From the NCBI GenBank assembly GCA_030446715.1, contig JAUJMU010000007.1:124001-188000 (forward strand): a stretch of 64,000 bases of DNA, read 5' to 3'. A model generated the notes under the pieces. It made no database searches. It worked only from the letters and a program-made list of their open reading frames with translations, and was not told where the DNA came from. Both the position numbers and the translations under genes were made by a program. Of the stretch, positions 22,777-38,330 are shown piece by piece. Source of the stretch: Cytophagales bacterium (GTDB lineage: Bacteria; Bacteroidota; Bacteroidia; Cytophagales; 172606-1). Within the stretch, counting starts at the first letter, position 1. Every line of letters starts with the position of its first letter.

Positions 22777-22911
22777 CTACCTGAGCGGCCGGTGAAATGT
22801 TTCCCTGCACATTATGGCCACCACGCTTACCTGGGCCGGATCATTGTACGCGGGGTCGGGTACAATAAACCGGGCCAGCGGCGCGAAGCCGATCCGCCTG
22901 CCGGCGTAGTA
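22777..22911 (-). pseudogene. 3' part of a fibronectin-III-like sequence split by the mobile island
   Basis: Minus-strand codons from 22911 to the stop at 22777-22779 read YAGRRIGFAPLARFIVPDP and continue to FHRPLR. The missing 5' part lies at 27309-27421 on the far side of the 4.4-kb island. Joining them after removing the island and one TA restores GYDVYYAGRR in frame. The pattern fits one fibronectin type III domain. This shows that the island inserted into an existing coding stretch. Confidence 0.75.
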
Positions 22912-23010
22912 TAGCATTCCTGAATCAATTGTATTGCTGCACCCTACCGTCTTTGGCCTTCCTGTCATTTGGGGAGGATAGGGGTTTATACAAACCAAAT
23001 AGGAATGCTA
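22912..23010 (+). repeat. MITE-like repeat, left copy
   Basis: The 99-bp repeat starts TAGCATTCCT and ends AGGAATGCTA, giving 10-bp terminal inverted repeats. A TA dinucleotide lies on each side (22910-22911 and 23011-23012), as expected for TA-targeting elements. It has no coding capacity. The copy at 27210-27308 is the same element in the opposite orientation, with roughly 85-90% identity by eye. Confidence 0.85.
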
Positions 23011-23012
23011 TA

Positions 23013-23216
23013 GACTACCTCACAGCCCTGCTGGATGCACTCGAGCGTCAACTCGTGTTGCCAGCTTTTGTAGAGCCATCCATGCCCGGCCTCGTAGTAG
23101 ACCTCCAAGTGCTCAGTCCTGGTAAAGCAGTTCCTTGGCTGCTGACTGACTGTATGGCAGTCCTCGGGCAACTTCTCCCTTAGGGCAGTAGGAAGAGGAA
23201 TGCCCACCGGTTCCAA
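23013..23216 (-). pseudogene. STAS/SEC14-like protein start, truncated by left MITE
   Basis: In this frame the codons read NCFTRTEHLEVYYEAGHGW and LYKSWQHELTLECIQQGCEVV, then run straight into the repeat. The pattern (LEVYY...WLY..W) resembles the small STAS/SEC14-like proteins of Cytophagales, of which only the N-terminal part is left. The frame begins at a TTG at 23216 inside the XRE gene, so the true start is uncertain. A fusion to the XRE gene by frameshift is another possibility. Confidence 0.45.
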
Positions 23217-23613
23217 ACAAGGAGGTTTTTAACCCGTACAGCTCTTCCTGGCAGCAGGCCAGTAAGTCTTGCTGCAGTTGTAACTGAGCTTCCTGACTAC
23301 GGAGTAGTTGCTCGTAGAGCCTGCGTTCCCGCTTCCAGTGAGAGGAAAGTGAACTTAAATCGGGCTTATCATCCGATTGGTTTACCTGCCTGGAGCTGGT
23401 TGAGAGAAACTGGGGCTGTGGCTCACAGAGCAACCGGCTAACTGCTACTTCCAGCAACTGGGCTAACTGGAGCAGGGTGTCCACTTTTAGTTTTACCTCA
23501 TCAGTTTCAATCTTACGATAACCACCCTGAGTAAAGCCTAATCGCTCGGCTAGGTATTCTTGGGTATAACCCTTCTGTTGGCGTGCTTGGCGAATTCTGT
23601 TACCAATACTCAT
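23113..23613 (-). CDS. XRE-family helix-turn-helix regulator
   Basis: The 166-residue protein begins with a Cro/CI-type domain: IGNRIRQARQQKGYTQEYLA, then RLGFTQGGYRKIETDEVKL and LLQLAQLLEVAVSRLL. After a linker, a glutamine-rich coiled coil (WKRERRLYEQLLRSQEAQL) probably mediates dimerisation. It should bind the two 18-bp palindromes at 23662-23700 just upstream of its own start and so regulate itself. The last 30 residues look less ordered and overlap the STAS-like frame. It is carried within the mobile island. Confidence 0.85.
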   Translation of the reverse strand: MSIGNRIRQARQQKGYTQEYLAERLGFTQGGYRKIETDEVKLKVDTLLQLAQLLEVAVSRLLCEPQPQFLSTSSRQVNQSDDKPDLSSLSSHWKRERRLYEQLLRSQEAQLQLQQDLLACCQEELYGLKTSLFGTGGHSSSYCPKGEVARGLPYSQSAAKELLYQD

Positions 23614-23661
23614 AACCCTGAAAAGAGGAAGTGTTAATATACTACTTTTATGGTAACAAAT

Positions 23662-23700
23662 AGTATTAATTTTAATACTCCCGGTATTAAGATTAATACC
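23662..23700. promoter_or_regulatory. Paired 18-bp palindromic operators
   Basis: Two palindromes share one design, 8-bp perfect arms around a 2-base spacer: AGTATTAATTTTAATACT (23662-23679) and GGTATTAAGATTAATACC (23683-23700). Their centres are 21 bp apart, two helical turns, which suits cooperative binding of two repressor dimers on one face. They lie about 50 bases upstream of the XRE regulator gene, so autoregulation is the obvious inference; genes to the right could share the control. Confidence 0.75.
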
Positions 23701-23702
23701 TT

Positions 23703-23894
23703 TTGAATAGGAATTCCACGCTCATTCTGCCATTTTCACTCTTGCTCTTGCTCGGGACAAAGCTGCTATACGGTGTTGCAGCAGGAAGCCAAGCCTCACA
23801 CTACCATCAGAGAAAGACGACTATAGGCTTGCAACCATTTACACTTCTTGAGGGTCATTCGCACAAAGCCGGATTATCTACCAGAGTAACATAA
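23703..23894 (+). CDS. Possible small exported peptide
   Basis: A TTG-started frame of 63 codons begins three bases after the operators and opens with a good signal-peptide-like stretch (STLILPFSLLLLLGTKLLYG) followed by a polar tail. There is no family match and no room for a normal leader between the operators and the start, so it may be a remnant or chance. The remaining bases to 24135 show no gene. Confidence 0.2.
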   Translation: MNRNSTLILPFSLLLLLGTKLLYGVAAGSQASHYHQRKTTIGLQPFTLLEGHSHKAGLSTRVT

Positions 23895-24135
23895 AATAAC
23901 AATCACCAATAGGCTTGCAATACTATTGCTTTCATGCATGAATTGTGGTAGCAACCGGACCCTATTTAGAGGGGGCTTGCTTCTGCTATGACTCCTAATA
24001 CAACAGAGGTATTGATGCTATATGTTCAATTGCTAAACCACTCTGTACAGGGAGTTATAAGCACTCGCTTGCTTACACATAACCTGTTTGCAGTAGCACA
24101 AATTACATAATTTATTCCTTTAACTAATAACTACT

Positions 24136-26526
24136 ATGCTCCACACTTTTACCCATCGCCGACTTGCAACTGGTAACTTGTTGCAGAAAATTGTTCATCT
24201 GCTGCTATTGCTCCTTTGTGCATCTTCTTATGCGCAAAACAGCAAGTACACTCCTAAAGCAGCCCAGAAGGACAATAAGGACTTACAAGAAATCACGGAT
24301 GCTATTTATGGGAATGGCTGGTTAAAAATGAAAGAATCTAAGAAGTTGAATTCTAAGCTGCTATTTGCATTACACAAAAAAGCTTTTGGGCTTAGTGCGA
24401 GTGATGAGATGATACTGCAAAAGGTGGAAGAGATAGACAGTATAAGTCAGGTTCTGCACAGGTTTCAACAGTATTATAAGGGTATAAAAGTGGAAGGGGG
24501 AGAATTTGTTGTAAAAGCTAGAAATGCCTCCGCTGCTACTGCCCACGGCAAAATTATAGAGGACTTAGATTTACTAACTCAGGCAGCCCTATCCCCCGAG
24601 CAAGCCCTTCAAAAGGCTTTAACTCAGCTCAAAGCCCAGAGATACATCTGGGAGCCTTGGAGTGATACACTTTCTTCCCGAACGAAAGATTCCTTAGCCG
24701 CTTTAAAGCCAAAGGGTGAACTTATTATTACCCCTTTACTCTATAATGGGAATTTGCACAAGAGTAACTTCAAACTAGCCTATGCTTTTTCCATTGGTAT
24801 TGAGAAGCCTGCTTTTGATATACGTCGAGTATACGTAGATGCTGCAACTGGAGCAGTACTTAAAAACTTTACTCAAATTCGAAAATGCGACGGGGGTTCA
24901 GTAGATACGTATTATGATGGTTCGGACCGGGGTGTTAAGATACGCAAGCGGGGTTTCCCTAATTTCGATAGTGTGTTAGAAGACGATTGCCATAATATTA
25001 ATACGGAAAGGTGGGATAATTCAGGGTTTAATCCCGGATACAGAAGAATTAGAAACAACAATACGGATTGGGGCAATTCTATGGAAGCTACTGCTCACTG
25101 GGGCGTCCAGGTTACCCATGATTATTTTCGCTTTCGTCACAATCGGAGAGGTACTGATGGAAATAACCGTTTTATGCGGGTGGGCTTTAACCGATTAAAC
25201 ATTGCTTGTAATGCAGCTTATGTATTCGATCCTTTTTTAGGGATTGATAATGAAATTTGGATTGGGACAGGTGGTACTACATGCGGTCAGTCGTTGACTT
25301 GCAATCCAATGGTATCTTTGGATATTCTAGCCCATGAATTTACCCATGGTGTAACAACGTTTACTTCTGATTTAACTTTCTTTGGAGAATCAGGAGCTTT
25401 AAACGAATCTTTCTCAGATATATTTGGTACGGTAGTGGAGTATTATTACCACGGCTACGATTTGGGACGTTTGTTTACCATTGGTGAAGGCCCTATCGCT
25501 GGTGGACTTCGCTCCATGAGTGATCCCAACTCCATTCCCGTAACCTTTGAGGAGGACTGTACGGTAGTAGAAAACTGGGCGGGTTCCCCAACTTTTTACC
25601 AGCAGAGTGGGTTTTGGTATACTGGTTTCCGGGATAACGGAGGGGTTCACGTCAATAGCGGCGTACAAAACAACTGGTTTTACTTGCTCACGCAGGGAGG
25701 CAACCGTTTCGGGGTAACTGTTTCGCCTATTGATATCAATAGTGCAGCCAGAATCGCCTACCTTAATCTTATCACCCTTAATGCCGGTTCTCAGTATCAA
25801 GATGCTGCAAACGGTTCTGTGCAAGCGGCTATAGATTTGTTTGGTCAGTGCTCCAATGAAGCTCTGCAAACATTTAACGCCTGGAGGGCCGTAGGTATTT
25901 TTCCAAACATTGACCCCACTGCCATTGGTTGTACAGCACCCGATATGCCAGGTCCTGTTTTCGGCCCGGATTACCTTTGCGAATACCAGTACGGTGAATT
26001 CTTTGTAGATGATGTACCAAATGCTACTCAATACATATGGACAGCCGACCCGGGTTTATTCATTACGCCAAATGGTAGATTCTGCACAGTTACGGCTCAA
26101 TATACAGGTTCCTATGCACTCTCAGTGCGAGCAGAGAATGGTTATGGGTCGAGTGCGACCAATGGTATCATCGTGGGTGTATATCCCAGTAGCTTCTGCG
26201 ATGGGGAAACCTACAGGGTGAGTGCGGAAAAGAAATTAGAATTTTATTCTAACAGCCCTTTCGAAACGGGACAACTCTTAAAAGTTTTCCCAGTTCCTAC
26301 TAGGGGCAGCACTACTATTCACTATTTGGTTGATAAGCCAGGAAACGTTAAAGTAAGCTTACAGGATATTTTCGGAAGATCAGTAACTACTATTGAAGAA
26401 AACTACAAAGAGCCAGGTATTTATGAGGTTACTTTTGATGCCGCTTTATACCCGAAAGGCGTATATATGTGTATATTTGAATCCAATCGAAGAAGATTTA
26501 TTAAAAAGTTCATAATTTTAAAATAA
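24136..26526 (+). CDS. Secreted M4-family (thermolysin-like) metallopeptidase with T9SS sorting domain
   Basis: The 796-residue protein has a signal peptide (LLQKIVHLLLLLLCASSYAQ), an FTP/propeptide region to about residue 250, and an M4 catalytic domain. The zinc motif is DILAHEFTHGVT, with the third ligand in ESGALNESFSDIFG about 20 residues later; NNGGVHVNSGVQN-type sequence near residue 505 is the distal histidine segment. A PKD-like module follows, and the last 80 residues form a T9SS type A sorting domain (KVFPVPTRGSTTIHY to RRFIKKFIILK). It should be secreted to the surface or medium and cleave proteins. Its AT-rich codon use differs from genes outside the island, which argues for transfer. 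A lipoprotein gene follows by 9 bases. Confidence 0.93.
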   Translation: MLHTFTHRRLATGNLLQKIVHLLLLLLCASSYAQNSKYTPKAAQKDNKDLQEITDAIYGNGWLKMKESKKLNSKLLFALHKKAFGLSASDEMILQKVEEIDSISQVLHRFQQYYKGIKVEGGEFVVKARNASAATAHGKIIEDLDLLTQAALSPEQALQKALTQLKAQRYIWEPWSDTLSSRTKDSLAALKPKGELIITPLLYNGNLHKSNFKLAYAFSIGIEKPAFDIRRVYVDAATGAVLKNFTQIRKCDGGSVDTYYDGSDRGVKIRKRGFPNFDSVLEDDCHNINTERWDNSGFNPGYRRIRNNNTDWGNSMEATAHWGVQVTHDYFRFRHNRRGTDGNNRFMRVGFNRLNIACNAAYVFDPFLGIDNEIWIGTGGTTCGQSLTCNPMVSLDILAHEFTHGVTTFTSDLTFFGESGALNESFSDIFGTVVEYYYHGYDLGRLFTIGEGPIAGGLRSMSDPNSIPVTFEEDCTVVENWAGSPTFYQQSGFWYTGFRDNGGVHVNSGVQNNWFYLLTQGGNRFGVTVSPIDINSAARIAYLNLITLNAGSQYQDAANGSVQAAIDLFGQCSNEALQTFNAWRAVGIFPNIDPTAIGCTAPDMPGPVFGPDYLCEYQYGEFFVDDVPNATQYIWTADPGLFITPNGRFCTVTAQYTGSYALSVRAENGYGSSATNGIIVGVYPSSFCDGETYRVSAEKKLEFYSNSPFETGQLLKVFPVPTRGSTTIHYLVDKPGNVKVSLQDIFGRSVTTIEENYKEPGIYEVTFDAALYPKGVYMCIFESNRRRFIKKFIILK

Positions 26527-26535
26527 CCTATTGGT

Positions 26536-27006
26536 ATGAGAACGATTGTTTTAGGAGTAATAGGAACGTGTCTGCTGCTTAACGGCTGTAAAGATGCCAG
26601 CAGAACAGTAGTGCCCGAGTCGATCAAAGCAGTATTTGGGCAGGAAGTAGAGCTGCAATTTAAGCAGCAGGCAACCTTTGATGAGGGGGTCGGTGTACAA
26701 TTTGTTGGCTTCTATCCCGGTGCCACTGGAGTTGCTTATACGTATCCGGCCAAGATTCACCTCAAACTTACGGCTCAAAACGATACTGCGACAATTGAGA
26801 TTCCGGAAGGGTTTGTTGCAAAGAACGATAGTATAGCACCACTTTGGAACCTAACCCTTAAGCAACCCCTACGCACCTTCAATCCTGCGTTTTCACTAGG
26901 AAATATTAGTATCACTTACAAAGATACCTATCCGACCTCACTTGACTTAGTGGATGTAAAGCCAGAAGACCGAAGGGTGGTACTAGTGGCCACCCTGGGT
27001 CAGTAA
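26536..27006 (+). CDS. Lipoprotein of unknown function
   Basis: The 156-residue protein begins TIVLGVIGTCLLLNGC, a lipoprotein signal with the lipobox cysteine at residue 18. The rest is predicted beta-rich (AVFGQEVELQFKQQATF, KIHLKLTAQNDTATIEI). It follows the M4 peptidase by nine bases and probably shares its transcript, so it may be an accessory or an inhibitor of that peptidase. The length and pattern do not identify a family. Confidence 0.75.
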   Translation: MRTIVLGVIGTCLLLNGCKDASRTVVPESIKAVFGQEVELQFKQQATFDEGVGVQFVGFYPGATGVAYTYPAKIHLKLTAQNDTATIEIPEGFVAKNDSIAPLWNLTLKQPLRTFNPAFSLGNISITYKDTYPTSLDLVDVKPEDRRVVLVATLGQ

Positions 27007-27033
27007 ACTGGTTAGGAGGGATAAGCCCTGCTA

Positions 27034-27207
27034 AGAAACGTGAATTATCGAGGTAATGGATTGATGCAGGATTAATCAAAGCAAGAAGTCAACCCAGTTT
27101 TACAAAGAGCAGTTTAAGGAATTGTCAGAAACCAAGTACTCGCCACAACGAGAATTGTACCGGACAGCTTAAAGTTAGTCGAAATCTTTGTTGCCTGTGA
27201 TGACTTC
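27034..27207 (+). mobile_element. IS982-family fragment truncated at the right MITE
   Basis: The left terminus resembles the IS982 element at 33253-34284 (ACGTGAATTATCGAGGTAAT here, ACGTGAGTTATCGAGGTAAT there). The leader and first codons of the transposase follow (SLKLVEIFVACDDF). The start codon has changed from ATG to ACG. The fragment stops where the repeat at 27210 begins, so the repeat junction postdates this IS copy. Confidence 0.8.
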
Positions 27208-27209
27208 TA

Positions 27210-27308
27210 TAGCATTCCTATTTGGTTTGTATAAGCCCCTTCCCTTCACAAACGGCAGGAAGGCCAAAGACGGCAGGTAGCAGCAATACAACTGATTTAG
27301 GAATGCTA
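27210..27308 (-). repeat. MITE-like repeat, right copy (inverted)
   Basis: The repeat has the same 10-bp ends (TAGCATTCCT / AGGAATGCTA) and length as the copy at 22912-23010 but lies in opposite orientation. TA flanks both sides (27208-27209 and 27309-27310). Internal shared sequence includes the complement of CGTCTTTGGCCTTCCTG. Confidence 0.85.
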
Positions 27309-27421
27309 TAGACATCGTATCCGCGCAGATTCCGGTCATCAGTTGACCGGCTCCATTGCAGCCTAGCCCCGCCGGACCCGCTCCGGATCATGACCAGCCC
27401 GGCGGGTGCCGGCGGCGGCAT
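27309..27421 (-). pseudogene. 5' part of fibronectin-III-like sequence, in frame after the AGE gene
   Basis: Codons from 27421 read MPPPAPAGLVMIRSGSGG and continue to NLRGYDVY at the island edge. The 3' half is at 22777-22911. The stretch is in the same frame as the AGE epimerase gene upstream and is separated from it by one TAG (27431-27433) and three codons. It may therefore have been the C-terminal domain of that enzyme, or the start of a separate small gene. Confidence 0.65.
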
Positions 27422-27430
27422 CCCGTCGGG

Positions 27431-28798
27431 CTACAGGTTTTGCAGCATGTTCATCAGGGAACGTCCGTCGTGGTAAGCGGCTTTCCAGGCGTGGGCTTTG
27501 TGGTCAGTTTTGGCTCCCGGGGTCTTGTCGAGGCCCCATTCGTACCAGCCGCCGTGCTCCTTGTCAATCAGGTACCGCTGCACGTATTCCCATTGCTTCC
27601 GGAACTTTTCTCCGTACTGCATCGGGTCATCCGGGTACTTCAGCGCCATCAGCAGCAGGGTATTCAGCCCCTCGGCCTGCGCCCACCAGTTTTTGCGACT
27701 GTCAATGATGGAAATGGCTTTTGCCCCTTTGTAGTAATACCCTCTTTCGTAGAAGCCACCCGTTTTGGCATCCCAGCCGTTGCGCAGGGCGTGGTCTACC
27801 ATTTTTTTGGCAACCAGCGGGGTGCGTTTATCTTCTTCCAGCCCCAGTACGTGCGAGGCTTCCAGCATCAGGTACGCAGTTTCTACGTCGTGTCCGAACG
27901 ACACGTGGTCAATGGCGTAATGGGCTTTACGGGCGGCCTCCGAGGAGTCACGGTACGAAACCGGCTTCCAGTCAGGCGTCAGGAAAAGCGTCAGGTACCC
28001 CCGGTCGGTGGTAATCCGGTCGCGGATGAGGGTGAGCATTTCTTCGGTCCGGTCGCGGAGCAGCGGATCGGGCCACACGCGGTAGAGTTCCGTGAAGGCT
28101 TCCAGCAGGTGAATGGAACTGTTCTGGTCCTTGTAGTGCAGCGGGCCGTACATTCCCTTGCTGGTAGTTTTGGCCAGATAGGCCGGGGTACCGTCCCGCA
28201 TCAGGTTCTGGAAATAGCCTTTGTGCCTGGCATCGTGACTGAATTCTTCCAGCCAGTAAAAGGCTTTTTTGGCAAGGTCCAGAGCGGCGGTGTCGCCGGT
28301 AGTCTCGTAGTAGGCGGCAAGGGCAAACAGGCCGAAAGCGTTGCCGTAGGCGGTCTTCAGATCGTCGGGATTGCGGGGCTTGCCGGCGGCAGTGGCCCAG
28401 GTGAAAAAGCCGCCGTTGGCCTGGTCCCACAGAGCATTCTTTAAAAAACGGAAACCGTGCTCTGCCGCCTCCCCTATGTGCCGGTTGCCGGGGTAGATCC
28501 GGGCTGCCTTTGCGGGTAGCCAGGTATGACGGGCCTGGGTGACGATCATCTTATCCTGGCTGCCGGTCAGTTTCCAGTCGTGGGTAAAAGTGGTATAGAA
28601 GCCGCCGTTTTCCCGGTCAATCACCAGCGGATAGTTGGTGTTCAGCAATTGCAGAAAAGCCTGCTCTACTTCCAGGGCATACGTTCTTCGCTGGGTGGAT
28701 GTCAGCGGCTGGGCACAGAGGATTCCCCCGGTATTGAGCACAAAAGCGGCAAACAGGCATCCAAACAATCCTGTTTTCATTGCCTTAGGTAAGTTCAT
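27431..28798 (-). CDS. AGE-family epimerase/isomerase (N-acylglucosamine 2-epimerase family), exported
   Basis: The 455-residue protein has a hydrophobic leader (GLFGCLFAAFVLNTGGILCAQ) and the (alpha/alpha)6 barrel of the AGE family: NGGFYTTFTHDW, QARHTWLPAKAARIYP, SFGHDVETAYLMLEAS and KNWWAQAEGLNTLLL include the conserved histidines used in catalysis. Members interconvert N-acetylglucosamine and N-acetylmannosamine, cellobiose and glucosyl-mannose, or similar sugars; the precise substrate is not visible. An alternative start at 28780 would leave a tighter signal peptide. A fibronectin-like stretch follows in frame after the stop codon. Confidence 0.88.
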   Translation of the reverse strand: MNLPKAMKTGLFGCLFAAFVLNTGGILCAQPLTSTQRRTYALEVEQAFLQLLNTNYPLVIDRENGGFYTTFTHDWKLTGSQDKMIVTQARHTWLPAKAARIYPGNRHIGEAAEHGFRFLKNALWDQANGGFFTWATAAGKPRNPDDLKTAYGNAFGLFALAAYYETTGDTAALDLAKKAFYWLEEFSHDARHKGYFQNLMRDGTPAYLAKTTSKGMYGPLHYKDQNSSIHLLEAFTELYRVWPDPLLRDRTEEMLTLIRDRITTDRGYLTLFLTPDWKPVSYRDSSEAARKAHYAIDHVSFGHDVETAYLMLEASHVLGLEEDKRTPLVAKKMVDHALRNGWDAKTGGFYERGYYYKGAKAISIIDSRKNWWAQAEGLNTLLLMALKYPDDPMQYGEKFRKQWEYVQRYLIDKEHGGWYEWGLDKTPGAKTDHKAHAWKAAYHDGRSLMNMLQNL

Positions 28799-32171: not shown

Positions 32172-33080
32172 CTACTGGCGTCCCGGGAAATAATCCCACG
32201 CCAGTTTGCTGATCCGGGCGATGACGCCTTCCCGCAGCTCCATGCCGCCGGCGGAATCCGAGACGAAAACGACTACCGCAACCTTTTTCCCGCTGGGCAG
32301 TGTTACAATACCGACATCGTTGGTGGCGGCGGTTATGCCTTTGGGATTAGTGCCGGAAGTACCCGTTTTGTGGGCAACTACCGCGTTTTCGGGCAGCATG
32401 CCCCTGATCCGCCGGGGGCCCGTTGGCGTTTCGGTCATAAATTTCAGCAAAAGTGCCCCACTGTCGGGAGAAAGAACTTTCCCCTGGTGAAAGAGATGCA
32501 GCAGTTGCAGCATGGCGGCTGGCTGGCACCAGTTGGTGTACTGTACTTCCCAGGCCTGGTGCATCTGGTGTTCATCGGCGGCAACCGCAATTCCTTTCAC
32601 CCCGAGCCCATGCATGTAGGTCTCCACTTTTTTTGGCCCACCCACCAGCCGGAAGAGAATATCGCAGGCGCTGTTGTCGCTCAGCGAAACGGTATAGCGG
32701 AGCAGTTTGCGTAAAGGCAGATCCACATCTCCATCCGGGTACTGGTCCCGCACCGGACTGTGGGTATCGGGCATCAGGTCGGCTCTGGTAACATGGATAT
32801 TCTCCTCCAGAGCGAGTTTGCCCTTGTCCACCTGATCCAGCACCAGCAGGGCCAGCGGAAACTTGAACACACTCTGCATCGGAAACCGTTCCCTGCCGTT
32901 GACGGTGAAGGTTTCGCGGCTCTGCAGGTCCATCACGGCCACGCCGGCCTTGCCTTTGGCCGTGCCGGCGATCCGCTCAATTTCTTTTTGGAATTGCTCC
33001 GGCTGGGCAAATGCATGAAGCGAGGACAGGCTGAGCAGCAGGAGTACTGCCGGCGGAAATGTTCTGAAGCGTAAGGTCAT
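32172..33080 (-). CDS. Class A beta-lactamase, subclass A2-like
   Basis: The 302-residue protein has a signal peptide (AVLLLLSLSSLHAFA) and the four class A motifs in order: SVFK (nucleophile serine and lysine), SDN, a Glu in AADEHQMHQ where Glu166 is expected, and KTG in AHKTGTSG. The segment EVQYTNWCQP fits the A2 group (CfxA/PER-like) that is common in Bacteroidota. It should hydrolyse beta-lactams in the periplasm. Some distant relatives have weak activity, so resistance cannot be assumed. It precedes the IS-disrupted hydrolase tail. Confidence 0.93.
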   Translation of the reverse strand: MTLRFRTFPPAVLLLLSLSSLHAFAQPEQFQKEIERIAGTAKGKAGVAVMDLQSRETFTVNGRERFPMQSVFKFPLALLVLDQVDKGKLALEENIHVTRADLMPDTHSPVRDQYPDGDVDLPLRKLLRYTVSLSDNSACDILFRLVGGPKKVETYMHGLGVKGIAVAADEHQMHQAWEVQYTNWCQPAAMLQLLHLFHQGKVLSPDSGALLLKFMTETPTGPRRIRGMLPENAVVAHKTGTSGTNPKGITAATNDVGIVTLPSGKKVAVVVFVSDSAGGMELREGVIARISKLAWDYFPGRQ

Positions 33081-33189
33081 GGATGGTGACGGAAAGGAAA
33101 TGTGGTTCAGGTAAATAATGAATTGATGTGGCTCTGCGGTAGGGCGGCGTGCCGGCCGGGCTGCTTAATGTTGGGGGGCCTTACAGAGT

Positions 33190-33252
33190 TTAATCAATTT
33201 TAAGCCATTTATTCCAGTCAACTGCTGCCCGGTCCCGGTTGAAGTTATTATA
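33190..33252 (-). pseudogene. C-terminal tail of alpha/beta hydrolase cut off by IS982
   Basis: Codons read FNRDRAAVDWNKWLKID and a stop at 33190-33192. The upstream part ends NPDGQPDYNN at the other side of the IS. Removing the IS and one 7-bp duplicate gives DYNNFNRDRA in frame. This short piece is thus the end of the gene, not a separate one. Confidence 0.8.
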
Positions 33253-34284
33253 ACGTGAGTTATATAGTAGGTTCTTAGATAACTACAATTTCGCAGGATT
33301 GGGCAATACGTTCTTTGAAAGGGGTAATGGAAGGGGTCTGATCAAAGAAGGTATAGGCAATAAGCGCCGACCAGAGGTTGATAAAAAAGTTCAAAGGGCT
33401 CCGGTGCGGGAGTGATCCAGGTCGCAGAGGTTTTTGAGACAGTCAAATACGGTTTCAATCAGTCCGCGATGGGAGAGATAGTAGTTTTTCTTGTAAGTGA
33501 TTGCTTGCAGTCCCATTGTTTTTCGGTATTTGGTTACGATTTCCAGTCCTCTTTCCCTGAGTCTGGCCGCCAGCCCGGTCAGATACCCTTTGTCTCCGTA
33601 GAGAAAGCCTTTGAGTTTTGAGTAAGCTTTTCGAGCAGATCATGGTTGTTATCGGCTACATTAGCCGTAGTGATGCGGAAGACGACTAATTGCCCTTTTT
33701 TTGGTTAATGACCGCATGAAGTTTGAAGCCAAAGAACCAGCCAGTAGAGGTTTTACCGGTTCTGGCCAGGTTTTTAAAGGTCTTGTTGCTCTGTTTTCTG
33801 CGGTTGTGGGCCACTACCAGGGGGTAGAATCAACGTAATTGGCCTCCGTAGTGGCAGCTAAACGACAAGCCGAAAGGAAAGCAAACAAGACAAAGTTGAC
33901 TCTTGGTATCTGAGCCACAAAAGCCGCATAGGCATAAGTGGTTTCAATAGCCGCGCATGGCTCTTAAAATGATCTGTTCATAGTAGTACTTGAAGCACTT
34001 GAAGCCCGAATGATGGTAAAAGATCAGGATGCTCATCATTTCACTATCGCTCATCTGTCTTTGTTTCGGCGGCTCATCGTTCTCTTGCATAGAGTACTGC
34101 TCGAATTGTTTACAAAAGTCATCGCAGGCAATGAAGATTTCAACTAACTTTAAGCTGTCCAGTATGGTTCTCATTGTAGTAGTTTCTTGGTTTGTGACAA
34201 TTCCTTAAACTACTCTTTGTGCAACTGTGTTGGACTTCTGCTTTAAGTGTTTCTCTATCAATTAATTACCTCGATAACTCACGT
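33253..34284 (-). mobile_element. IS982-family insertion sequence, 1,032 bp
   Basis: The element starts ACGTGAGTTAT and ends ATAACTCACGT (inverted ends) and is flanked by the 7-bp direct repeat TATTATA at 33246-33252 and 34285-34291. The length is normal for IS982. It interrupts the last codons of an alpha/beta hydrolase gene. A second copy of the same element survives as a fragment at 27034-27207. Confidence 0.88.
33275..34174 (-). pseudogene. IS982-family transposase, several frameshifts
   Basis: The N-terminus is intact (SLKLVEIFIACDDF, SDSEMMSILIFYHHSGFKCF). Later blocks in different frames are clear: NYVDSTPLVVAHNRR, TSTGWFFGFKLHAV, FLYGDKGYLTGLAARLRERG, SHRGLIETVFDCLKNLC and NFFINLWSALIAYTFFD; together they match the DDE transposase of IS982. 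At least five frame changes are needed, several in short homopolymers (for example 33820-33824 and 33696-33702). The protein would not be functional as read. Confidence 0.85.
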
Positions 34285-34531
34285 TATTATAGTCCGGTTG
34301 CCCATCAGGGTTAAGTCTAAAATAATTGTGTTCAAGTCCTGAACAGGACCTGAAGCTAAAGTTTCGCTTTCTCTGCCGGATCATTTCAACCCTCAGATAA
34401 TCATCGAAAGGAGCACTATGATCTTTGCCTCCGTAAGTAATCAGTAGAGGCAGGTTCAACTTTTTGAGGTTATCGGTGAGGAGTTGAAAATTTAAAAGTT
34501 GTTTTAGGGGTTTTATATTGTCCAACCGACA
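34285..34531 (-). pseudogene. Alpha/beta hydrolase 3' part fused to DUF6624 end
   Basis: Residues LPLLITYGGKDHSAPFDDYL and SGLEHNYFRLNPDGQPDYNN form the end of an alpha/beta hydrolase, with the acid residue in GGKD and the catalytic histidine in LEHN. Its N-terminal half is absent: the frame comes directly from the DUF6624 gene at about 34532. A deletion evidently joined the two. The last residues are separated by IS982. Confidence 0.7.
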
Positions 34532-35147
34532 TTTTTTCTCCAGGCGTTGTATAGTTTTTCTCTCGTTTATATCAGCGGGTGGCTCCTGGCCCTCCTCAAT
34601 CGCCTGCTGTCTAATAATCTTCGTTTGTTCTTCAAGTGAATTCAATCCTATTGATTTTCGTCTTTGATCAACTTTATTGATGCCGTACACAGGGCGGGGG
34701 CTCAATTCTCCTTTCTCGTCCCAATCAAAATTTGTCCCGTAAAACTGTGGTCTTCCTTCCAGAACGGCAATCCTGTCTGTCAAGTAGGCTAATTGTTTAG
34801 GGTCGGCTTTATTTTCATGAACAGCTTTTTCTAAAAGAACTGCACATTCTTTCATGAATGCCGGTTGCCCGATTGAATGCTGAATGACCAACCAACAAGC
34901 ATCGTTGGCTTGTTTACCCACTTTATCAATTGTTGGATAGCCTATCGTTTCAATTATCCTTTTTTAAAACCTCTGCATTTTCGTTGTGTAACTTTTCCAT
35001 TTGCTTATTGTACCCGTCAAAAAGCTGCCCGTCGCGCATGAGTTCGTCACGCAATTGCAAATCAGCATTTTGTAAAGCAATAATCTGCTCCGCAAAGTCT
35101 TTATAATTCATTTCGTTACTTGCTGTCGTATCAGTAAAAATAAACAT
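34532..35147 (-). CDS. DUF6624 protein with one frameshift, cassette gene
   Basis: The N-terminal part (NYKDFAEQIIALQNADLQLR and DGYNKQMEKLHNENAEVL) reads from 35147. One A too many in a run near 34965 shifts the frame. After it, IIETIGYPTIDKVGKQAN and LAYLTDRIAVLEGRPQFYGT show the DUF6624 family, whose function is unknown and which is often found in mobile gene cassettes. The C-terminus is lost in a fusion to a hydrolase piece. It is the first gene to the left of attC-like site A, in the same orientation as the other cassettes. Confidence 0.7.
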
Positions 35148-35199
35148 CAATGATAAGCAAGTAATCCATTTGACGGCGCGGGAATGCTAAACCCAAATT

Positions 35200-35294
35200 G
35201 CCGCTAATAGACCAATGCCACCCGCATACCGGGTGCTCATGGTGAGGCCCTGCGGTGGAGCGCACCGGTGGTCGGCGTGAGCGGGGTTAGCGGC
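35200..35294 (-). repeat. attC-like site A
   Basis: The 95-bp site has outer ends GCCGCTAA and TTAGCGGC and inner inverted segments around GCCGACCACC / GGGTGGC. It follows the stop of the DUF5615 gene by 13 bases. Its entry core is complementary to the core that starts the same cassette at site B, as expected for integron attC. Confidence 0.75.
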
Positions 35295-35307
35295 ACAGCC
35301 TTTGTTT

Positions 35308-35635
35308 TCATGATTTCTTTATTACAATTGGTCCCGGTAAAAGCTGCTTACCGAGCTTTTCTCTTATTGATGGCACAAGTTCTTTAAGTGTTGCATAAGT
35401 ATTGTCTTCCGCATCTAATACAAATACGGTAATAGGATATCTGTTGAAGTTTTGCTGAAAAGGTAAGTTCTTGTCGAAAGTCATCAGTATGTGAAAATCA
35501 GCAGCTTTCAACAAAGACATCAATTCTCCATTCTTCTTTCCATTCCACGCTTTTTTCCCGTATAGTGTAAATTTCATGGTCAGGAAAATCCTTCTTTAAC
35601 CTTTTTGGCAAGTTTTCATCCAACAATATTCTCAT
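35308..35635 (-). CDS. DUF5615 PIN-like toxin, one frameshift
   Basis: From the ATG at 35635 the protein begins MRILLDENLPKRLKKDFPDH, the signature of DUF5615/Mut7-C-like PIN nucleases, with the acidic DEN. One extra A in the run at 35551-35556 breaks the frame; the other part reads AWNGKKNGELMSLLKAADFH and MTFDKNLPFQQN, the second conserved acidic block (TFDKNL). It overlaps the DUF433 antitoxin gene by about 20 bases. As a pair they form a VapC-like toxin-antitoxin module inside an integron cassette. Confidence 0.82.
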
Positions 35636-35854
35636 AAATCTGCTTGAAATTTTTCGATGAAACTACTTTTCCCGCTATGTCCAATATTTCTACAGCTTGT
35701 TCACGGGTAACGGTAGAAAGTCTTCAAGAAATTCCTCTAACGGGATTCCTTTCTCTAAATGCATAAAAAGTGTTTCTATAGGTACTCTGGTGCCGCGGAA
35801 TACAGGTGTTCCTCCTAAAATTTCGTTATCAATATTGATTACATCTATTCTCAT
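35616..35854 (-). CDS. DUF433 antitoxin, one frameshift
   Basis: The ATG at 35854 starts MRIDVINIDNEILGGTPVFR, continuing GTRVPIETLFMHLEKG, the DUF433 core that binds DNA and the DUF5615 toxin. A missing C near 35715 shifts the frame; after it DFPTVTREQAVEIL and KNFKQIYENIVG complete the protein. The start lies about 60 bases after the cassette core at site B. The last codons overlap the toxin start, typical of coupled toxin-antitoxin genes. Confidence 0.82.
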
Positions 35855-35904
35855 TGTCGTAAATTTAGTTTTATCTAATCTATGGATTTTTTATCATTTT
35901 GCTT

Positions 35905-35987
35905 GCCGCTAACGAACCAAAGCCACCCGACGCCATGCCCTCCTGCTGTAGCTATGCGCTTTGGCCGGCCGTGGCTGGTGTTATGCG
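35905..35987 (-). repeat. attC-like site B
   Basis: The 83-bp site reads on the minus strand CGCATAACACC at one end and GTTCGTTAGCGGC at the other, with inner GCCACGGCCGG and GGCGTCGGGTGGC. It lies right after the lipoprotein stop codon. GCATAAC here pairs (one G:T) with GTTGTGC at the start of the same cassette in site C. Confidence 0.75.
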
Positions 35988-35995
35988 TTCGTCTT

Positions 35996-36436
35996 TTAAT
36001 TTTTAGCTTTAATTAAATGATATTCAATCCCACCTAATGAGTCTCGGTAAAGCCATAAATATTTTTCATCTAGTCTTCTTATTTTAAATTCTGTAACATT
36101 ATAAATGTTATTTGTGTGTTGATTGACTTCTTTAAGAAATAGGCTATTATTCTTAATCTCGAAAGGCAGGTAGAAGTATCCAGTTACCCAAGTACTATCA
36201 TTATGATTGAAATATCTTGGGTGCCACTGATTGTCTATATCTATCTCAATTCCGTGGTCATTGAGATATTTTGTTAATGAATTGTAAGGACCAGGCCAAA
36301 CATTTCCTTTTCTTACGGATTCATATGTGTTCCATTTCCCCAACAATTTTAAATATGGATTCGGCTCCTTTTCTTTCTTACAACTGAGCAATACCATGAA
36401 TGTTAGTGTAATCCAAATTATACGTTTAATTCTCAT
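35996..36436 (-). CDS. Cassette-borne lipoprotein of unknown function
   Basis: This 146-residue protein has a lipoprotein signal (RIIWITLTFMVLLSC, cysteine near residue 19) and a beta-rich body with many aromatics (YLKLLGKWNTYESVRKG, DSTWVTGYFYLPFEIKN). It resembles lipocalin-like small lipoproteins only in pattern. The ATG is 14 bases past the core of site C and the stop is a few bases before site B, which is the compact arrangement of an integron cassette. Confidence 0.75.
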   Translation of the reverse strand: MRIKRIIWITLTFMVLLSCKKEKEPNPYLKLLGKWNTYESVRKGNVWPGPYNSLTKYLNDHGIEIDIDNQWHPRYFNHNDSTWVTGYFYLPFEIKNNSLFLKEVNQHTNNIYNVTEFKIRRLDEKYLWLYRDSLGGIEYHLIKAKN

Positions 36437-36449
36437 ATCTTAATTTGAT

Positions 36450-36547
36450 GACGCACAACGCATCAAGACCACCCGACGCCGCGGCCTCATGCGTCAGACC
36501 TGCGGTGGAGCGGCCCGGTGGTCGGCGTGAGCAGTGTTATGGGTAAA
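36450..36547 (-). repeat. attC-like site C
   Basis: The minus strand carries TTTACCCATAACACTGC at one end, inner GCCGACCACCGGGCC and GGCGTCGGGTGGTC, and GTTGTGCGTCATC at the other, 98 bp in all. TTACCCATAAC matches the reverse complement of the core 240 bases upstream (36776-36786). Confidence 0.75.
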
Positions 36548-36786
36548 CCCTTTCCTTTCAATTTATAATTTTTTTGCTGACTGTCGGCTTTCGTCGTCTC
36601 TTTACAACGTTGTTCCGGGTCGCCAAACGTCTTTTTGATTCAGCTGTTGACTGCCTGCCATACTTCCTTGCGTCAGCCTTGTTTGGTTATGCAACCGTTG
36701 ATTCTGCTCTTTGGGCTAGGCACTTTTCGACTTCACCTGCCTCTTCTCGTCACGCCAAACGTGTTTCTTCTTCGGTTACCCATAAC
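36548..36786 (-). other. Short cassette without a convincing gene
   Basis: This stretch lies between the core GTTATGGGTAA (reverse complement at 36776-36786) and site C, so it has the limits of an integron cassette of about 240 bp. The minus strand has no sizeable frame. The plus strand has a 123-codon frame that starts at 36574 and runs out of the cassette, which is probably chance. It may carry a small RNA, a promoter or a decayed gene. Confidence 0.5.
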
Positions 36787-37031
36787 ATTAAAATAAACAC
36801 TATACTCGTTTACCTGTCTTACAGCGGCTCCAAACTGCACCCGGTTCCTCCCTGTCAACCCAGCAGTAACCTTGTGGAACAGGCTCTTTCACGATTCATG
36901 CGCCTCTCTACAATATCGCATAATCAAGTTGTTTTACAAGCGTAAAAATTAAAACTTATTTGCTTCTGCACTGACCTGAACATCCATCTCCGGGCCGGCT
37001 CCTCCAAGAGCAACGCTTTATCAGCCTTTGT
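36787..37031. other. Intergenic between cassette cluster and icd, no gene seen
   Basis: I see no attC-like hairpin or integrase here. The cassette cluster simply begins next to the icd terminator. Confidence 0.5.
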
Positions 37032-37067
37032 AAAAAAAAGCCCCTGAGAATTGATTTCCCAGAGGCT
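37032..37067 (-). terminator. Intrinsic terminator of icd
   Basis: On the minus strand AGCCTCTGGGAA and TTCTCAGGGGCT form a hairpin with a 4-base loop, followed by eight T residues (plus-strand A run at 37032-37039). It lies 25 bases past the icd stop codon. Confidence 0.85.
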
Positions 37068-37091
37068 CACCTATAAAAGTCAGGAATAATT

Positions 37092-38330
37092 CTAAGCCGA
37101 TACGCCCACGGGGTTCATGTTTTTGATGATCTCGGTACCAAACTCGGAACACTTCAGCAGCGTGGCACCTTCCATCAGGCGTTCAAAGTCATAAGTGACC
37201 CGCCTTGCGGCAATGGACTTTTCCAGACCACTGTAAATCAGGTCGGCGGCTTCCTGCCAGCCAAGGTATTCCAGCATCATGGCACCCGAGAGGATGACTG
37301 ATCCGGGGTTTACCTTGTCCTGACCGGCGTACTTGGGGGCCGTGCCGTGGGTGGCCTCAAAAATGGCGTGGCCGGTCATGTAGTTGATGTTGGCGCCGGG
37401 AGCAATCCCAATCCCGCCCACCTGCGCGGCAAGGGCGTCGGAAATGTAATCGCCGTTGAGGTTAAGGGTGGCAATGACTGAATACTCAGCCGGACGGAGC
37501 AGAATCTGCTGTAGGAAAGCGTCGGCAATGCTGTCTTTGATGATGGTGCCGCCGGGCAGCTTGCACCACGGACCACCGTCAATCTCCACGGCGCCGAATT
37601 CCCGCCTGGCCAGATCGTAAGCCCAGTCGCGGAAACCACCTTCGGTAAATTTCATGATGTTGCCCTTGTGCACGATGGTCATGGAGGGCTTCTTATGACG
37701 AACCGCGTACTCAATGGCCGCCCGCACCAGCCGCTCGGTGCCTTCTCTGGACACGGGCTTGATGCCGATGCTGACGCTTTCGGGGAAACGGATTTTCTTG
37801 TATGCCTGCGGGAAGGTCTCCTTCAGGAAGTTCTTGATTTTTTCGGCATCCGGGGTACCGTCGCGGAATTCAATACCGGCGTAAATATCCTCGGTATTCT
37901 CGCGGAAGATCACCATGTCGGTCAGTTCGGGCTGGCGCACCGGGGAAGGCACCCCCTGAAACCAACGCACCGGACGCAGGCAGGCGTACAGGTCAAGTTC
38001 CTGACGAAGGGCCACGTTGAGGGACCGGATACCACCGCCAACGGGGGTAGTCAGGGGACCTTTGATGCCGACCAGATACTCCCGGAAAGCAGTGAGGGTT
38101 TCATCCGGAAGCCAGTTGCCGGTCTGGTTAAAGGACTTTTCGCCGGCCATTACTTCCTGCCACTGAATCTTGCGCTTGCCACCGTAGGCTTTTTCTACGG
38201 CTGCGTCAAATACCCGCACGGATGCGGCCCAGATATCAGGACCGGTGCCGTCGCCTTCAATAAAAGGAAGTATCGGATTATCCGGCACCTGCAATTTGCC
38301 GTTGCTGATGGTGATCTTTTGTCCACTCAT
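37092..38330 (-). CDS. icd: NADP-dependent isocitrate dehydrogenase
   Basis: The 412-residue enzyme catalyses oxidative decarboxylation of isocitrate to 2-oxoglutarate in the citric acid cycle. [35 protein letters not shown] (with the serine that is phosphorylated in the E. coli enzyme), [13 protein letters not shown], and [17 protein letters not shown] are in order; [17 protein letters not shown] is the NADP-site segment. The length and frame are normal. It is a single-gene unit with its own terminator. Confidence 0.97.

Follow-up and report, generated by a model that had tools for sequence, protein, structure and literature searches.

How a block of genes that holds no transposase of its own comes to lie inside a chromosomal gene, framed by two short inverted repeats, is the question raised by a 4.4-kb island in the genome of a Cytophagales bacterium (G000, 6.43 Mb). 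Coordinates given without a contig refer to the window, which is the whole 64,000-nucleotide stretch of DNA that was analysed. We conclude that the block is foreign, that it entered the chromosome at one TA as a single unit, and that two transposase-less MITEs most likely carried it there.

One insertion at a single TA

The island is bounded by a left MITE (22912..23010, forward strand; outer end TATAGCATTCCTGAATCAATTGTAT, inner end TATAGCATTCCTATTTGGTTTGTAT) and an inverted right MITE (27210..27308, reverse strand; outer end TATAGCATTCCTAAATCAGTTGT). Both are 99 bp long, within the 50-500 bp range of MITEs, contain no complete coding gene and carry terminal inverted repeats. Each is bordered by TA on both sides (22910-22911, 23011-23012, 27208-27209 and 27309-27310), and the whole unit corresponds to a single TA in relatives. 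The two copies are 88% identical over 103 bp (E 1e-31), and the 12% difference means that they are either different copies or aged. Their outer ends read TATAGCATTCCT(A/G)AATCA(A/G)TTGTAT and their inner ends TATAGCATTCCTATTTGGTTTGTAT. The first-pass annotation had described two inverted 99-bp MITEs around an AT-rich block with TA at the outer flanks, which the coordinates, the base composition and the empty site described below bear out; the 10-bp inverted ends it had assigned to them are in fact imperfect terminal inverted repeats of about 24 bp. A search for further copies of the repeat and of the whole island, as it had proposed, found only these two MITEs of the 99-bp type in G000, and the 4-kb unit nowhere else.

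A single solo copy, 71% identical, is present in G001, a member of the same genus. G000 itself harbours sister types of MITE at about five other places (C2:44147-44247, C4:599485-599587, C8:290539-290639, C7:485951-486051 and, at a contig end, C13:117585). These are 101-104 bp long, have TATAGC ends and differ from the island MITEs in their interior.

To the right of the island lies a GlcNAc-2-epimerase-like gene (27431..28798, reverse strand; Pfam GlcNAc_2-epim, 3.1e-36) that originally ended in an FnIII domain and now ends at an in-frame TAG. Alignment with three relatives, G002, G003 and G004, places the 5' half of the FnIII tail (...LRGYDVY) at 27311..27430 and the 3' half (YYAGRRIGF..., with a 1-bp deletion near its end) at 22780..22909, both on the reverse strand. 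When 22912-27308 and one TA are excised in silico, the frame is restored (...LRGYDVYYAGRRIGF... / ...RSTDDRNLRGYDVYYAGRRIGFAPL...). The same junction, which had been predicted from the two half-frames joining at one TA, is present uninterrupted in G002 (RGYDIYRHGKRIGF), G003 (LGYDIYQNGKRIGF) and G004 (IGYDIYLGGKKIGF), where the frame of the epimerase-like gene extends through an FnIII domain at the C terminus. At the DNA level, the three relatives align with the reconstructed junction without gaps, and TA is found at the site in 3/3. This means that nothing separated the two gene halves before the insertion, and that the block entered as one unit with duplication of the TA. The outer left TA (22910..22911), conserved in all three uninterrupted genes, and the outer right TA (27309..27310) are the two copies of this target-site duplication. 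The boundaries of the island, its insertion as a single unit and the TA scar are thus directly visible. Cargo between two repeat copies at one insertion site is the arrangement of a composite transposon, and insertion at TA with TA duplication is that of the IS630/Tc1-mariner group.

The interruption of an FnIII-like frame was therefore correctly recognised at the outset, but the frame itself is the decayed C-terminal tail of the epimerase-like gene. In G000, an in-frame TAG (27431-27433) lies just before the FnIII part, and 1 bp is deleted at about 22800. In G001, the FnIII tail is wholly absent. Together with the decay in G000, this suggests that the insertion struck a part that is apparently dispensable in the genus.

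A foreign cargo between two cut genes

The cargo comprises three genes. An XRE/Cro-type HTH regulator of 166 aa (23113..23613, reverse strand; Pfam HTH_3, E 4.8e-13) is preceded upstream by two palindromes of 16-18 bp each, 21 bp apart (AGTATTAA..TTAATACT and GGTATTAA..TTAATACC; 23662..23700), which resemble operators and may function as such. To its right lies an M4 (thermolysin-type) metallopeptidase of 796 aa (24136..26526, forward strand; Pfam Peptidase_M4_C, 1.3e-37, and Por_Secre_tail, 3.8e-7; NCBIfam TIGR04183), laid out as a propeptide, a HEFTH motif, a PKD-like domain and a T9SS type A sorting tail. The third gene (26536..27006, forward strand) encodes a small putative lipoprotein of 156 aa with an LLNGC lipobox and had no family match in Pfam or NCBIfam. 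The early description of the cargo as an XRE regulator with operators and a T9SS-secreted M4 peptidase agrees with the Pfam matches and with the paired palindromes, whose operator role is predicted from their sequence.

In composition the island stands apart from its surroundings, with a GC content of 43.8% against 56.7-57.6% in the 5-kb flanks, and a GC3 of 0.39-0.52 in the cargo genes against 0.65-0.72 in four flanking genes. In the 381 genomes of the order that were searched, no relative of the M4 peptidase exceeds 41% identity. The island DNA matched nothing in plasmid and phage collections, the STAS-like (see below), XRE and lipoprotein proteins matched nothing in plasmids, and neither a second copy of the 4-kb unit nor a donor was found in the genomes, plasmids and phages searched. 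The distance of the M4 relatives and the lack of plasmid and phage matches point to a donor outside the sampled genomes. Elsewhere in the window, a second low-GC block (~43%) lies at about 32900-37300 and includes an IS982 whose 5' end is at about 34116-34285.

Both inner edges of the island fall inside genes. At the left, a 53-residue frame representing the N-terminal part of a STAS-like protein (23013..23171, reverse strand, in a frame different from that of the XRE gene) reaches the MITE and is cut there after ...QQGCEVV. Its homologues in the order, mostly from one family, share ~30-41% identity with it and extend ~80-150 residues beyond the cut. At the right, the 5' terminal fragment of an IS982 element (27037..27207, forward strand) is cut at the MITE after ...LVEIFVACDDF; over its 171 bp it is 82% identical to an IS982 copy elsewhere in G000, and IS982 of this kind also occurs in G001. 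The truncation of both inner genes is plain from these comparisons, and confirms that the inner flanks cut a STAS-like gene and an IS982, each at TA. Since the inner edges lie at TA inside cut genes, insertion of the MITEs into other genes appears to have preceded movement of the composite, and the inner left TA (23011..23012) is presumably the target site of the left MITE in the donor gene. The capture of a segment between two pre-existing MITEs, as first envisaged, is in this way supported by both edges, although the capture itself is deduced. The similar IS982 in G000 suggests that the donor shared mobile elements with this lineage. Another STAS-like gene in G000 (C9:12502) resembles the one cut by the island and is itself apparently frame-shifted.

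The ends match a cyanobacterial-type IS630 group

The paired ends of the MITEs were searched for in 84,980 species, each represented by one genome. Four contigs were recovered, namely the G001 copy, an Ardenticatenales MAG, Fischerella and Oscillatoria. The MITE ends match those of a cyanobacterial-type IS630 group in up to 23/23 bases. The Oscillatoria genome (G771) contains 144 ends of the form TATAGCANTCCTAAATNANTTGT, many of which form MITEs of 102-111 bp, and one of these ends shares an identical stretch of 23 bases with the outer end of the right island MITE. In Fischerella, too, there are ~100-bp MITEs with matching ends, and ends of the island type also flank a 1124-bp element whose IS630 transposase is split by frame changes. 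This transposase contains HTH_33 and DDE_3 domains, and both frame pieces match NCBIfam NF033545. An IS630-type transposase with matching ends, of the kind that the first-pass annotation had suggested looking for, exists in Fischerella and in plasmid-borne cyanobacterial copies. Ends shared with a transposase-bearing element, which identify a MITE as IS630-derived, are found in the Fischerella element and also in IS630 of Nostoc and Planktothrix. In ends and length, the cyanobacterial ~100-bp MITEs (TATAGCANTCCTAAAT ends, motif TATAGCANTCCT) are like the island MITEs (up to 23/23 end bases, 102-111 bp); what differs is the phylum of the host. In the Oscillatoria genome (L010, L069-L098), island-type MITEs also stand in tandem, neighbours sharing one TATA, as if they had inserted into each other's flanking TA (e.g. 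L090, 109-214 and 211-317).

All plasmid-borne relatives of the Fischerella transposase were cyanobacterial among the organisms tallied. The ends of plasmid-borne IS630 elements were of the island-MITE type in 3/4 examined, the fourth (Nostoc sp. TCL26-01) having diverged ends (TATAGGAATCATATTTGATTT). Among the 381 genomes of the order, the best matches of the transposase are in G001 (41%, E 3e-31) and G000 (37%, E 4e-16), the next one having E 4e-10, and these two genomes are also the only ones of the 381 with an island-type MITE. Both relatives are decayed. The G001 element measures 1076 bp and has TATAGCAA ends, and the G000 remnant is truncated and ends in TATAGCATTGCTACATGATTTGT. The identity of the ends with the IS630 group and the remnant of that transposase group in G000 are direct observations. 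Next to this remnant (C9, 1-1200) lies a transposase-like gene, by eye apparently ISAs1/IS4-like, which seems to have removed the 5' part of the remnant.

An intact transposase with exactly the island MITE ends was not found in G000 or its relatives, which bears on present activity and not on origin. The island MITE pattern was absent from viral contigs. Matches to a single-end pattern elsewhere in the class (L024, L025) had no partner end and were taken as chance. IS630 elements sampled via Pfam DDE_3 were rejected as the partner; they have other ends (TAAGTA..., TAGTGC..., TATAGAGGG...).

How the island may have moved, and what it means

We consider it likely, with a probability of roughly 0.8, that the island is an IS630/Tc1-type composite transposon made of two non-autonomous MITEs and captured cargo, and that it was moved by a transposase acting in trans. 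In the donor genome, two TAs would each have received a MITE, one of them in the STAS-like gene beside the XRE regulator, the other in the IS982 adjoining the pair of M4 peptidase and lipoprotein genes. Two nearby MITEs present four ends, and if the outermost pair is joined, everything between them can be mobilised. As there is no transposase inside the unit, an IS630-family enzyme would have to be supplied in trans, pair the outermost ends and cut out the whole 4397-bp unit. The excised unit would then have been joined to the epimerase-like gene at a TA within its FnIII tail, with duplication of this TA. Since the MITEs face in opposite directions, both outer ends are copies of one end, the more consensus-like of the two, and this may have made outer pairing the preferred choice. 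The cut-and-paste step is read from the scar that it would have left. In line with such a route, the transposase of ISY100, an IS630 element, and ~30 bp of each end suffice for transposition, which takes place into TA with duplication (PMC2170065). Mini-ISY100 carried 1,679 bp of cargo, with an upper limit undetermined by the authors (PMC6400869), and the 4.4-kb island exceeds the cargo tested for ISY100.

Could the two MITEs have come to frame the block in another way? If they had inserted independently and later rearrangements had placed them around it, their identity of only 88% would fit. But the outer flanks are the adjoining halves of one reading frame, united at a single TA just as in the three relatives, an outcome that independent events would not produce. 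The empty site already largely refutes this history, which we regard as highly improbable. Alternatively, a solo MITE may have occupied this TA first and the cargo may have arrived later, through homologous recombination of a circle carrying another MITE. MITEs are known recombination sites (review, PMC10969869), and solo ~100-bp MITEs of a related type reside in G000. A single crossover at a resident MITE, however, would give direct repeats, while those observed are inverted, and a double crossover would need the composite to exist already elsewhere. This makes recombination of a circle an improbable origin, if a somewhat better one than independent insertions.

A further alternative concerns the source of the cargo and not the mechanism. 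The same IS630 ends could have moved a cargo that was assembled in a near relative, from accessory DNA of low GC such as a plasmid, instead of one from a distant donor. The 82% identity of the IS982 fragment to IS982 of G000, the same IS982 in G001, the occurrence of STAS-like genes in the same order and the sister MITE families resident in G000 would all fit. Yet no close relative of the cargo is found in the order (M4 at most 41%), nor in the plasmid and phage collections. We therefore treat a nearby source as possible, but rather doubtful.

Movement of the island as a composite under IS630 ends places it in a general kind of transposon that is known, usually with other repeat families and in other bacteria. 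TIME-COMPs, formed by Tn3-derived MITEs (IMU, IS101, MITESen1, TIME244), likewise consist of cargo bound by two transposase-less MITEs; they are moved as a unit by a transposase in trans, are flanked by target duplications and may have inverted copies (PMC13367494). Their ends are of Tn3 type, they transpose replicatively with 5-bp duplications, and most of them occur on plasmids of Enterobacteriaceae. The island, by contrast, has IS630-type ends and a TA target, and its surroundings are housekeeping genes on a large contig from a member of the Cytophagales. Lacking Tn3 repeats and a 5-bp duplication, it is a functional analogue of a TIME-COMP but not one of them. With IS630/Tc1/mariner elements of the ISY100 and mini-ISY100 type it shares the TA target, its duplication and imperfect terminal repeats of ~24 bp (PMC2170065). 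In contrast to ISY100-type elements, which have a single transposase and need only their ends (PMC2170065), it has no internal transposase, each of its ends is a complete MITE, and it carries 4.2 kb of cargo. MITE-flanked integrons and blaPER-1 in Acinetobacter, as cited in a review (PMC10969869), also place cargo between two MITE copies, in their case resistance cargo and other MITE families. The literature searched, with incomplete coverage, contained no earlier natural composite of IS630-type MITEs and nothing that combined MITE, IS630, Bacteroidetes and cyanobacteria. In a 2026 paper, the authors knew of no composite bounded by non-Tn3 MITEs in Enterobacteriaceae (PMC13367494).

Most documented MITE pairs that carry genes involve Tn3-type elements and resistance genes. 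The island extends this record to another phylum and to a non-resistance cargo, a secreted protease and its possible regulator, with a clean empty site at TA and a transposase group that could be identified. If such units are general, they would account for gene blocks without a recombinase of their own. It is conceivable, if unlikely, that IS630-type MITE pairs, which share their ends with elements abundant in cyanobacteria, are a recurrent vehicle for chromosomal segments between bacterial lineages, including Bacteroidota. In that case, what is seen here would be a single instance of a general mode of gene transfer overlooked by annotation pipelines.
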